A stretch of DNA of 57,929 nt. Source: Oscillospiraceae bacterium (GTDB lineage Bacteria; Bacillota; Clostridia; Oscillospirales; Acutalibacteraceae). The position numbers and the translations under genes are program-made. Below, piece after piece: positions 49,160 to 53,152 of this stretch (positions are counted from its first letter, which is position 1; the number at the start of each line of letters is the position of its first letter). Location: NCBI GenBank assembly GCA_015065645.1, contig SVPW01000011.1, forward strand, positions 1 through 57,929. Direction: 5' to 3'. Under the pieces are notes generated by a model that worked only from the letters and a program-made list of their open reading frames with translations, ran no database searches and was not told the origin of the DNA.

Positions 49160-49449
49160 CTTTACCGCCCTTTAAAAAAGGGCGGTAAAGCCTGTCGAAA
49201 AACCTAAATTTTATTTTTTATGCGGCTTGTAGCCGCATTTTTGTTTTTTCAGCGACAGGTGCGGTGAAAAAATACATCATAAGCGAAAATCCGCTTATGA
49301 TGCGGATTTTCAAGGGCACAGGGGTGGTATTGGCGGGGATAGAGTGCAGTCAAAAAAATTTTATTTTTTTGCGAACGGCATCCCCGTCCAAGAGAGTGGA
49401 GACTTTGTCGACACTCTCTACCGCCCTTTAAAAAAGGGCGGTCTTTTTT
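49160..49449 (+). repeat. multi-hairpin element between two copies of one palindrome
   Basis: The 23-bp palindrome at 49164-49186 is repeated exactly at 49420-49442, where a T-run follows. Between them lie: a closed domain CCTGTCG/CGACAGG (49191-49197 with 49253-49259) enclosing hairpin 49220-49238; two mutually exclusive hairpins (49275-49302 or 49286-49310); a GGCGGGGAT/ATCCCCGTC pairing (49332-49340 with 49380-49388); and hairpin 49391-49419. Two short overlapping ORFs on opposite strands look spurious. It may be a structured RNA with its own terminator or a palindrome-flanked repeat. No Rfam family was recognised by eye. Confidence 0.65.
49420..49449 (+). terminator. rho-independent terminator at the end of the structured element
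   Basis: Ten-bp G/C-rich stem with A-rich loop followed by seven T residues. Confidence 0.85.
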
Positions 49450-49565: not shown

Positions 49566-49604
49566 GCAACCATCAGTTGCGGTTAAATAGACAAGTGTGG
49601 TTGC
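49566..49604 (+). promoter_or_regulatory. alternative hairpins in the glmM leader
   Basis: GCAAC (49566-49570) can pair with GTTGC (49576-49580), or, extended to GCAACCA, with TGGTTGC (49598-49604). The two pairings exclude each other and begin near the predicted transcript start, so this could be a switch or an operator for the HTH domain of the encoded protein. Confidence 0.35.
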
Positions 49605-49663
49605 TTGACTTATCGTTAATCGGTGTTTAAAATTGTTTTAAAACAAAAAACGGAGGAAAAATT

Positions 49664-51310
49664 ATGACTATCGGTCAAAAAATCGCAATTCTTCGTACTG
49701 CTATGCAGCTTTCTCAGGAACAACTCGCCGAAAAGCTTTCGGTTTCAAGACAATCGGTTTCAAAATGGGAATCGGATTCTGCTTTGCCTGAGGTGGGTAA
49801 GGTTTTGCAGTTGGCTTCACTTTTTAATATAACCACAGATGACCTTTTACGTGATGAAATACCTCTTGAACCAACCTATACCGAAGCCCTTTTCAGACCA
49901 AAGGAGGCTATTGCCTTTAATGGGAAATATTTTGGAACAGATGGTTTCAGAGGGGAGGCTAATGTTGACCTTGATGCAATGCATGCTTTTAAAATAGGCA
50001 GATTTTTAGGTTGGTATTACTCAACCAAACGCTCAAATAATCGCAGTATGGCTAAAAGGGCAAAAATAGCGGTTGGAAAGGATACCCGCCGTTCAAGCTA
50101 TATGCTTGAATACGCTATTGTTGCAGGTATAACTTCTTCGGGTGCGGATGCCTGTATGCTTCATGTTACCACAACCCCAAGCGTTGCTTATGTAGTTTGT
50201 CAGGAGCATTTTGATTGCGGTGTTATGATTTCGGCTTCGCATAATCCTTATTACGATAATGGTATAAAAATATTAGGCGGCGGGGGAGAAAAGCTTGATG
50301 ATGCAACACTCGCCTTAATTGAAAGCTATTTGGATGGCGATCTTTCTTCTTTTGATATAGAGGGTGAGGATCTCCCCTTGGCAAAGCGTGATAAATTGGG
50401 ATGCATAATAGATTATGTTGCGGGAAGAAACCGTTATTTAGGCTTTCTTATTTCGGTTGCGGCAAATTCTTACAGGGGGCGCAATATAGCACTTGACTGT
50501 GCAAACGGTTCATCATGGATGATTGCAAAATCCGTTTTTGATGCATTGGGTGCCACCACCTATGTAATAAATGCGAATCCTGATGGTTTAAATATTAATG
50601 AGCAGGCAGGTTCTACTCATATCGGTAACCTTCGTAAATATGTAAGGGATAATCATCTTGATGCAGGCTTTGCTTTTGATGGGGATGCCGACCGTTGTAT
50701 AGCTGTTGATGAAAACGGAAATATTATAAATGGTGACCATATAATTTATATTTTGGCAGAAAGACTTCGTTCAAGAGGTCTTCTTCCCGGCAATAAGGTT
50801 GTAACAACCGTTATGTCAAATATGGGGCTTTATAAGGCATTGGAAAAGACGGGTATTGGATACCACCAAACCATTGTGGGTGATCGTTATGTTCATGAAG
50901 CAATGCTTCAAAACGATTATTATTTGGGCGGTGAGCAATCAGGTCATATAATCGTGCGTAAATATGCTACAACAGGTGACGGAATTTTAACCGCAATACT
51001 GCTTATGGAGGAAATGATAGACCGCAAAACCACCCTTTCAAAGCTTGCTTCTCCCGTTACAATGTATCCTCAGTCAATAGTTAATATTGCTGTTACAAAT
51101 AAGTCACAGGTTTCATCGGATGAAAGGGTGAAGAAATGTGTTGAGGAAATTGCAATACAGCTTGGGTCTGATGGAAGAATAATTTTAAGGGAAAGCGGAA
51201 CAGAGCCGGTAATCAGAGTGATGGTGGAGTGTGGTAATGAAAAGCTTTGTGAAAGCTGTACAGCCCGTGTGGCAGAGCTTATAAAACAGTTGGGTTATGC
51301 TAAAAAATAA
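49664..51310 (+). CDS. glmM: XRE-type HTH fused to phosphoglucosamine mutase
   Basis: 548 residues, about 90 more than GlmM. Residues 1-65 are a Cro/C1-type helix-turn-helix (SQEQLAEKLSVSRQSVSKWE at 17-36). Residues 85-548 are a phosphohexomutase: GTDGFRGE at 91-98, phosphoserine loop ISASHNPYYDNG with Ser192, metal site DGDADR at 339-344, sugar-binding GGEQSGH at 422-428, phosphate site RESGTEPVIRVM at 509-520. All active-site parts are present. It converts glucosamine-6-P to glucosamine-1-P. glmS follows 18 bp later, so enzyme and DNA-binding domain lie in one operon; autoregulation by sugar phosphate is an inference. There is no internal stop or frameshift at the junction and the ATG has GGAGG. 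Confidence 0.93.
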   Translation: MTIGQKIAILRTAMQLSQEQLAEKLSVSRQSVSKWESDSALPEVGKVLQLASLFNITTDDLLRDEIPLEPTYTEALFRPKEAIAFNGKYFGTDGFRGEANVDLDAMHAFKIGRFLGWYYSTKRSNNRSMAKRAKIAVGKDTRRSSYMLEYAIVAGITSSGADACMLHVTTTPSVAYVVCQEHFDCGVMISASHNPYYDNGIKILGGGGEKLDDATLALIESYLDGDLSSFDIEGEDLPLAKRDKLGCIIDYVAGRNRYLGFLISVAANSYRGRNIALDCANGSSWMIAKSVFDALGATTYVINANPDGLNINEQAGSTHIGNLRKYVRDNHLDAGFAFDGDADRCIAVDENGNIINGDHIIYILAERLRSRGLLPGNKVVTTVMSNMGLYKALEKTGIGYHQTIVGDRYVHEAMLQNDYYLGGEQSGHIIVRKYATTGDGILTAILLMEEMIDRKTTLSKLASPVTMYPQSIVNIAVTNKSQVSSDERVKKCVEEIAIQLGSDGRIILRESGTEPVIRVMVECGNEKLCESCTARVAELIKQLGYAKK

Positions 51311-51328
51311 ATAAAAAGAGGTTGGCTT

Positions 51329-53152
51329 ATGTGTGGAATTATAGGTATGGTAGGGGTTAAAAATGCCATTCCTTATCTTATGGAAGGCTTGAGCCGTTTA
51401 GAGTATAGAGGTTATGATTCGGCAGGTATTGCTTTTTTGAATGGTAATCAACTTGCCTGCAAAAAAGCACTCGGTAAGCTTGAAAATCTGCGTAAAACCA
51501 TTCAAAATGATGCCCGAAACACAAATATAGGAATAGGTCATACCCGTTGGGCAACCCACGGTAAACCCTCTTTTGATAATGCACATCCGCATATAAGTCC
51601 AAATGCTAAATTTGCCGTTGTTCATAACGGAATTATAGAAAATGCAGATTCTCTAAAAAATGAGCATTTTCCAAATACCTCCTTTGCCTCACAAACCGAT
51701 ACCGAGGTAATAGTGCATCTTTTGCAAAAGTATTATAACGGAAATATGGTGCAAACCGTTTCCTGTGTACAAAAGCTTCTTTTAGGCTCTTATGCACTTG
51801 GCATTATTTCAACAGAATATCCAAACACACTTTTTTGTACCGCAAAGGGAAGTCCTTTAATTGCGGCGGTGGGTGAAGTGGGGAATTTTATAGCTTCCGA
51901 TGTAAGTGCTGTTTTCGGTTATGCAAGCGGATATTATAACCTTTCAAACGGTGAAATATGTGCTGTGCAGGAGAATGATATTAAGTTCTTTAATAATGAT
52001 GCCGTATGTATTGAAAAGCAAATTGAGCCAATAATTGCCGATGCTTTAATAAACGATAAGCAGAGCTTTGAGCATTATATGATGCTTGAAATGATGCAAC
52101 AGCCTGATGCTGTAAGAAACACACTTGAACCTTTGTTTATAAATGGTGAAATGTGCCTGGATTCCTTTGTTCCCGATTCTCATTTTTTAAAAAATTCACT
52201 TTCAAAAATTGTTATTGTGGCTTGTGGCTCAGCATATCATGCAGGACTTGTGGGTGAAAGACTTTTTGAGGATTTGGCAAGGGTTGAAACCAAAGCCCAA
52301 ATTGCCTCGGAGTTTCGTTATTCAAATCCTATTATTAACCAAAACACCCTTGCAATTTTTATAAGCCAAAGCGGTGAAACAGCTGATACCCTTGCCGCAT
52401 TGCGTCTTGCAAAGCTAAAAAATGCTAAGGTGCTTTCAATAGTTAATGTGCGCTCCAGCGCAATAGCAAATGAAAGTGATTATGTTATTTATACAAAGGC
52501 AGGCCGTGAGGTTGCCGTTGCAACAACAAAAGCATATAGCTCACAGCTTGCAGTATTGTATGCTCTTTCGCTTTATATCAGCAAAATAAGGCAAAGTGTT
52601 GAGGGCGAAATGTATGACGGTTTAATTAAACAACTGCTTTGCCTGCCTCAAAAAATTTCCGAAACGATTATAAATACGCAATCGTTGGTTAAATGCTTAG
52701 CACAGCATTTTTATACCCAAAATGATATGTACTTTATTGGCAGACAGCTTGATTTTGCCGTTTCTATGGAGGGTTCGCTGAAGTGTAAGGAAATAAGCTA
52801 TATTCATTCTGAATCCTATGCCGCAGGCGAGCTTAAACACGGTACAATTTCCTTGATAGAACAGGGAACACCTGTTATTGCCGTTGCAACGGATGAAACG
52901 GTTATAGGTAAAACGGTAAGCAATATGCGTGAGGTGGAGGCAAGAGGTGCCAAAACCGTGCTTGTAACCTTTGAAAAATATAAAGATTGCACCGATAAAT
53001 CAGAAGTTATTGTAATTCCCGAAACTGCTTCGCAGTTTTCTGCATCACTTTCGGTAATACCGTTACAGTTTTTAAGCTATTATATGGCTAAACTGCGTGG
53101 CTGTGATATTGATAAACCTAAAAATCTTGCTAAAAGTGTTACTGTTGAATAA
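51329..53152 (+). CDS. glmS: glutamine-fructose-6-phosphate aminotransferase
   Basis: 607 residues, full length. Class II glutaminase domain with Cys2 (MCGIIGMVGVKNAI), RLEYRGYDSAGIAF, HTRWATHGKPS and the histidine-rich HPHISPN; two SIS isomerase domains with ACGSAYHAGLVGERL, SQSGETADTLAALRLAK and the C-terminal DKPKNLAKSVTVE. Makes glucosamine-6-P from fructose-6-P and glutamine for cell-wall precursors. No glmS ribozyme can fit in the 18-bp gap to glmM. Confidence 0.98.
   Translation: MCGIIGMVGVKNAIPYLMEGLSRLEYRGYDSAGIAFLNGNQLACKKALGKLENLRKTIQNDARNTNIGIGHTRWATHGKPSFDNAHPHISPNAKFAVVHNGIIENADSLKNEHFPNTSFASQTDTEVIVHLLQKYYNGNMVQTVSCVQKLLLGSYALGIISTEYPNTLFCTAKGSPLIAAVGEVGNFIASDVSAVFGYASGYYNLSNGEICAVQENDIKFFNNDAVCIEKQIEPIIADALINDKQSFEHYMMLEMMQQPDAVRNTLEPLFINGEMCLDSFVPDSHFLKNSLSKIVIVACGSAYHAGLVGERLFEDLARVETKAQIASEFRYSNPIINQNTLAIFISQSGETADTLAALRLAKLKNAKVLSIVNVRSSAIANESDYVIYTKAGREVAVATTKAYSSQLAVLYALSLYISKIRQSVEGEMYDGLIKQLLCLPQKISETIINTQSLVKCLAQHFYTQNDMYFIGRQLDFAVSMEGSLKCKEISYIHSESYAAGELKHGTISLIEQGTPVIAVATDETVIGKTVSNMREVEARGAKTVLVTFEKYKDCTDKSEVIVIPETASQFSASLSVIPLQFLSYYMAKLRGCDIDKPKNLAKSVTVE

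Follow-up and report, generated by a model that had tools for sequence, protein, structure and literature searches.

A predicted DNA-binding domain of the XRE type is fused to GlmM

The stretch of DNA analysed here, hereafter the window, comprises 57,929 nucleotides from an Oscillospiraceae bacterium (assembly GCA_015065645.1, contig SVPW01000011.1) and carries on its forward strand an open reading frame in which an XRE-type helix-turn-helix (HTH) domain precedes the phosphoglucosamine mutase GlmM. This single frame, HTH-glmM (49664-51310), encodes 548 aa without an internal stop. Residues 1-65 (49664..49858) make up the HTH domain, residues 66-87 (49859..49924) a linker, and residues 88-548, with the stop codon, the GlmM part (49925..51310). 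On the same strand, glmS (51329..53152) follows.

A Pfam search matched HTH_3 (PF01381) to residues 8-61 with 46.9 bits against a cut-off of 23, and PGM_PMM_I to IV to residues 88-538, each above its cut-off. PGM_PMM and HTH families were the only ones detected at an E value of 0.001; neither the NMN adenylyltransferase nor the ribosylnicotinamide kinase domain of NadR was among them. The protein passed the equivalog model for GlmM (TIGR01455; 504.1 bits, cut-off 447.55) and was the sole match over this cut-off in its own assembly (1.86 Mb, 85.7% complete). Four stretches were invariant across 28 aligned sequences: A191-S192-H193-N194-P195, D339-G340-D341-x-D343-R344, G423-E424-x-S426-G427-H428 and R509-x-S511-G512-T513-E514. 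We take these to be the catalytic serine, metal, sugar and phosphate loops of the GlmM family. An AlphaFold2 model of the single chain had a mean predicted local distance difference test (pLDDT) score of 85.9, with confident HTH and GlmM parts and values below 50 at residues 70-85. Five helices were predicted with high pLDDT in the HTH domain (3-13, 18-24, 29-36, 44-54 and 58-62). The catalytic part matched the GlmM structures 7ojr, 3pdk and 6gyz, the matches beginning at query residue 85-87, and residues 1-62 matched the Xre repressor of ICEBs1 (PDB 7t8i). The HTH domains are alike, but Xre is a small protein on its own that represses a mobile element and carries no enzyme.

An initial annotation of this DNA had proposed an XRE HTH joined in frame to a GlmM that keeps its catalytic motifs, with glmS 18 bp downstream. 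Pfam, TIGR01455 and the 28-sequence alignment agree with the first point, and the gap at 51311-51328 and the glmS score on TIGR01135 (697.1 bits, cut-off 418.05) bear out the second. Collectively, these results indicate that the fused protein is, as predicted from its sequence, a complete GlmM bearing an intact XRE HTH domain.

The fusion is conserved in several Firmicutes families

HTH-GlmM was sought in other genomes and proved to be conserved in several Firmicutes families. In a contig scan, 17 of the best 80 loci matched from residue 1 in one frame; these came from metagenome-assembled genomes (MAGs) labelled Clostridia, Lachnospiraceae, Erysipelotrichaceae and Bacillales. With its own genome counted, the fusion was present in 15/60 genomes of a relatives set and, among the matches listed, in at least 15 genomes of a class-wide sample of 391, whose fused and unfused loci were taken from those matches, best first. 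The carriers fell under family codes f1, f29, f33, f34, f42, f43 and f75 in the class sample and f17 in the relatives set. In total, 46 fused and 93 unfused loci were collected, leaving 40 and 89 distinct loci after removal of near-copies at 95% identity; the fused carriers are gut Clostridia and MAGs labelled Erysipelotrichaceae or Bacillales. Five loci whose match begins at residue 3 (L026, L028, L044, L053 and L054) were classed as unfused, glmM having its own frame there, and where their neighbours were inspected the XRE was a separate gene.

Mean pairwise identity was 0.67 for the HTH domain, 0.85 for its recognition region (residues 26-37), 0.22 for the linker and 0.72 for GlmM, which supports the view that the HTH domain of the fused protein is under constraint. 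The possibility that a sequencing or assembly error had joined two genes, the HTH being a separate gene in relatives and the window carrying a frameshift, can be ruled out, since the identical in-frame join recurs at 46 loci with a conserved HTH. A separate GlmM made from an internal start is also unlikely, because the window linker has no in-frame ATG, GTG or TTG; an internal start codon with a weak Shine-Dalgarno-like stretch was found in the linker of one of the 40 fused genes.

A conserved palindrome precedes the fused genes

The palindrome GCAAC-N5-GTTGC was first noticed by eye in 18 upstream regions. In the window it reads GCAAC-CATCA-GTTGC (49566..49580, no strand assigned) and is referred to as the candidate operator O1. 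In an unbiased dyad count covering all pairs of 5-mers with spacers of 0-15 within 300 bp upstream, O1 ranked first. It was exact in 32/40 fused and 0/88 unfused glmM promoters, the latter set lacking one locus with less than 100 bp upstream and including seven loci (L034, L051, L053, L058, L114, L125 and L162) at which a wrong start or a short frame was taken, so that the sequence counted was not the true promoter; exact O1 was also absent from these seven in whole-locus or 400-bp scans. Within 400 bp, 33/40 fused loci had an exact O1, and two loci (L098 and L154) had O1 with one mismatch. Upstream of L017-L019, which lie in Erysipelotrichaceae or Bacillales MAGs, no O1 was recognisable; L017 and L018 have GTAAA...TTTAC inverted repeats in its place.

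With the motif fixed beforehand, a fresh set gave an exact O1 in 13/14 fused loci, lying between -90 and -123 relative to the ATG, and in 0/14 unfused glmM loci within 400 bp. A whole-locus scan of 80 loci (900,896 bases) found 13 exact sites, one each in 13 of the 17 fused loci, and none in the 63 unfused loci. Among relatives, exact O1 lay before 13/15 fused genes (own counted) and in none of 15 unfused loci. The own assembly contains a single exact GCAACN5GTTGC, namely O1 at HTH-glmM. These results suggest that HTH-glmM's own operon is headed by a conserved candidate operator, and that O1 is very probably the site bound by the fused HTH.

The same arms with any other spacer of 0-15 were found in 0/40 fused promoters, and the N5 spacer was constant in length and variable in its letters. 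A fixed 5-base spacer of changing letters does not fit an RNA hairpin or terminator, the reading to which long arms beside A/T runs at L005, L006 and L052 might otherwise point. The site also lies mostly 5' of the presumed promoter and is absent at unfused glmM, and no Rfam match was found in the window, leaving a hairpin or terminator exceedingly improbable.

A different palindrome, TTGTTTTAAAACAA (49633-49646, perfect over 14 bp), which separates the -10 box from the Shine-Dalgarno sequence, was the first operator idea and was dropped, as it occurred in none of the other 17 upstream regions read. The 531-bp gap 5' of HTH-glmM also holds two near-identical hairpin stretches, ACCGCCCTTTAAAAAAGGGCGGT (49163-49188 and 49420-49442), which are terminator-like or a dispersed repeat.

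The position of the site favours repression

The best promoter after O1 in the window consists of a -35 box TTGACT (49605..49610) and, 17 bp after it, a -10 box TAAAAT (49628..49633), both on the forward strand and followed by a Shine-Dalgarno sequence GGAGG (49652..49656, forward strand) read from the sequence. Between O1 and the promoter is a weaker candidate site, O2 (GACAAGTGTGGTTGC, 49590..49604, no strand assigned), whose end adjoins the -35 box. Most fused promoters have GTTG 17-19 bp after O1, and a second site ending GTTGC or GTTGG is usually found just 5' of the -35 box. Among the 32 fused promoters with an exact O1 and sufficient downstream sequence, the best -35 box lay 21-24 bp after O1 in 27. 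The -35/-10 spacer was 17 in 28/32, in a search that allowed spacers of 16-18 and penalised those other than 17. At the 21-24 offset, which was fixed only after the box positions had been seen, 30/32 promoters matched at least 8 of 12 promoter letters, compared with 6.4% of shuffles.

The placement of O1 differed at a few loci. In L012-L015 it is 28-29 bp before the ATG and 3' of TATTAT or a similar sequence that we take for the -10 box. At L099, an O1 variant, TCAACTCATAGTTGA, overlaps TTGACA. A site downstream of the presumed -10 box or on the -35 box favours repression, and from these operator positions we consider repression the likely net effect. In L016, O1 stands at the head of an operon with a glmS remnant 5' of the fused gene; this remnant (L016:5636-5990, about 250 bp, with the palindrome on one side and the fused glmM on the other) keeps its ends and has lost its middle, or reflects an assembly collapse.

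Alternatively, HTH-GlmM could sit at the -35 box as an activator, recruiting RNA polymerase and increasing expression of its operon while substrate is abundant. The lambda repressor activates in this way at PRM, and the end of O2 at the -35 box, with O1 one or two turns farther upstream in most fused promoters, would suit such a role. The -35 and -10 boxes are nevertheless good unaided, as the 30/32 promoters with at least 8/12 letters indicate, and a site 3' of the presumed -10 box in L012-L015 or on the -35 box in L099 does not fit. We therefore regard activation as improbable.

Other genes carry the palindrome

Exact matches to the loose pattern GCAACN5GTTGC numbered 1 to 7 per genome across the 29 fused genomes. 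A tighter pattern, GCAACYNNNRGTTGC, derived from the glmM sites themselves, was present in 14/15 fused and 8/23 unfused genomes. In fused genomes, 13 of its 15 matches were at HTH-glmM, with one each elsewhere in G005 and G027, a distribution that only suggests control of a single target by HTH-GlmM. Ten matches fell in unfused genomes: four before XRE genes (G011, G023 twice and G031) and one before glmS (G028), with some of the remainder inside other genes. The sites before other XRE-type genes lie about 90-100 bp 5' of them (L144, L145 and L131, at 1501-1515 in each, and G023:C10:4186-4200), and L144 has a comparable second site and promoter beside GCAACYNNNRGTTGC. Thus GCAACYNNNRGTTGC may be the signature of a larger family of XRE proteins that regulate themselves, and we read the palindrome as the putative operator of a broader XRE group that would have given rise to the fused HTH.

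The exact palindrome in G028 (L182:930-944, reverse strand of the locus) is directly 5' of the TTGACA of a stand-alone glmS, and a second, imperfect copy lies farther upstream. The relatives search found no GlmM closely similar to the query in this genome. Two degenerate copies precede an unlinked glmS in G002.

The palindromes at these XRE genes also raise the alternative that another XRE regulator binds the site in trans, the HTH of GlmM having a different role or target. The site tracks the fused HTH instead: it is missing from all 88 unfused promoters and from nine HTH-less genes nested among fused ones (described below), and the only exact match in the window's own genome is at HTH-glmM. 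Binding by a separate regulator is thus very improbable.

The HTH domain and the candidate operator go together

A quick tree was built from 122 GlmM domains, with the letters X deleted and the seven unfused loci with a wrong start or short frame left out. The fused rows fell in two starred clades, one of 3 rows that includes the window and one of 46 rows (37 fused and 9 unfused), between which the tree did not settle the branching order. The 68 other unfused rows formed a separate starred clade. At least six changes were required, four of them forced by starred branches. The nine HTH-less genes within the 46-row clade (L112, L113, L115-L118, L163, L166 and L023) had no O1, the best matches showing 3 or 4 mismatches. 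Judged from these sequences, the HTH and the candidate operator go together across fused and unfused glmM.

Neighbouring genes and the glmS ribozyme

The initial annotation had described the locus as a glmM-glmS operon, an arrangement that does not hold generally. The gene directly 3' of HTH-glmM is a GlmU-like acetyltransferase, related to the acetyltransferase half of GlmU, in 33/40 distinct fused loci; NagB is downstream in 18/40 and glmS in just 4/40, all three counts being lower bounds because flanks vary and are often about 1.5 kb. In L151, glmS is found farther along. The NagB of L004 scores above the TIGR00502 cut-off. The acetyltransferase of the same locus resembles the C-terminal half of archaeal-type GlmU, with a score below the cut-off.

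At the genome level, glmS was over the cut-off in 10/29 fused genomes and not in the other 19, whereas NagB was over the cut-off in 28/29, the sole exception having glmS. All 19 glmS-less fused genomes carry NagB, 10 of them being at least 95% complete, and in some NagB is directly in the HTH-glmM operon. This suggests that NagB may make glucosamine-6-phosphate (GlcN6P) in the synthetic direction in these genomes.

The initial annotation had seen no room for a glmS ribozyme between the genes. Consistent with this, no Rfam family reached its gathering threshold in the window, and RF00234 was absent from the own assembly (85.7% complete), the B. subtilis control being positive. RF00234 matched in 0/29 fused and 16/51 unfused genomes, 15 of the 16 over the cut-off (Fisher p 0.0003, kinship ignored). 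The proposed link between the fusion and ribozyme loss stands in this pattern, but only in part, since 19/29 fused genomes lack glmS and some of the ribozyme absence reflects the missing gene. The ribozyme was missing in 10/10 fused genomes that have glmS, a small number.

HTH-GlmM as a putative trigger enzyme

One protein thus combines a catalytic and a DNA-binding domain, and a conserved site lies at its own promoter, as in a trigger enzyme. HTH-GlmM probably controls its own operon directly, and we think it reasonably likely that it is a bifunctional trigger enzyme that auto-controls its amino-sugar operon. GlmM dimers are reported to touch through domain 1 (PMC8573169). Because the HTH is joined at this domain, the dimer would bring two HTHs together. 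Such a dimer could bind O1 and O2, cover the -35 box and repress its own amino-sugar operon. GlcN6P, glucosamine-1-phosphate (GlcN1P) or the bisphosphate in the active site might change DNA binding, the least certain step, for which ligand control by the GlmM part is only slightly favoured. Flux through GlcN1P would thereby set operon expression, and HTH-GlmM would do the job of the glmS ribozyme of its relatives. The initial annotation had proposed a trigger enzyme repressing its own operon. Autoregulation is better supported than it was by the sequence alone, through the conserved fusion, the constrained HTH, the promoter palindrome and the ribozyme pattern, and repression is suggested by the operator position.

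In its full form, this model describes a protein feedback switch, with GlmM as sensor and repressor, that in several gut Firmicutes families replaces the glmS ribozyme and controls GlmS or a NagB working in the synthetic direction, depending on which of them lies in its operon, the HTH and operator being gained or lost as a unit. We put it forward tentatively, at slightly less than even chances. Several findings weigh against the trigger enzyme. Five of the 40 distinct fused loci (L009, L017, L018, L019 and L099) have no O1 with one mismatch or fewer within 400 bp upstream, and the unlinked glmS genes of G186, G365, G077 and G101 lack an exact site. The one-mismatch pattern was not above chance in the window (2 seen, 1.62 expected); because of this, the 46 one-mismatch places for GCAACN5GTTGC in the own assembly were left uninterpreted and the idea of a large regulon was set aside. 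An independent-pairs test of joint loss was underpowered, with four supported pairs, about three pointing the same way, none opposite and a median p of 0.25. Moreover, an operator adjoining the -35 box can also serve an activator, the palindromes in G011, G023 (two) and G031 might be bound by another XRE, and the ribozyme pattern is partly that of glmS.

The same HTH and operator evidence would also fit a plain autorepressor, in which concentration feedback through the HTH holds GlmM and its operon at a fixed level and sugar phosphates do not alter binding. The variable linker, predicted to be disordered, agrees with this, as it leaves coupling between the active site and the HTH unexplained. 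A plain autorepressor gives no reason for the HTH to stay fused to an enzyme that keeps all its catalytic motifs, although the fusion could persist for other reasons. On balance, we consider it unlikely, though the least so of the alternatives, and prefer the ligand-responsive trigger enzyme.

Relation to known systems and significance

Fusions of enzymes with DNA-binding domains are already known. NadR of enteric bacteria resembles HTH-GlmM in having an N-terminal helix-turn-helix joined to an enzyme whose pathway it regulates or, in HTH-GlmM, is proposed to regulate. The NadR enzymes act on nicotinamide mononucleotide and nicotinamide riboside, whereas HTH-GlmM has GlmM and a different proposed operator and pathway. 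BirA and PutA likewise combine catalysis and DNA binding in one polypeptide, each controlling its own pathway, but differ in enzyme family and in the DNA-binding fold or operator. The GlmM proteins of Bacillus and Staphylococcus share the 460-residue catalytic part with the same domains and motifs, but their matched stretch includes no DNA-binding domain. A regulatory role for GlmM of another kind, inhibition of the c-di-AMP (cyclic di-AMP) cyclase CdaA by protein contact, is reported (PMC8573169). The glmS ribozyme (RF00234) also controls amino-sugar synthesis in Firmicutes, acting at glmS, but does so through RNA rather than through a protein as proposed for HTH-GlmM. No description of HTH-GlmM was found in the literature searched, most subscription papers lying outside that search.

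An exact DNA site, a defined protein and a short list of ligands make the idea directly testable in vitro. If it is true, an enzyme of peptidoglycan-precursor synthesis would read its own metabolic state and set its own transcription in gut bacteria without a recognisable glmS ribozyme.

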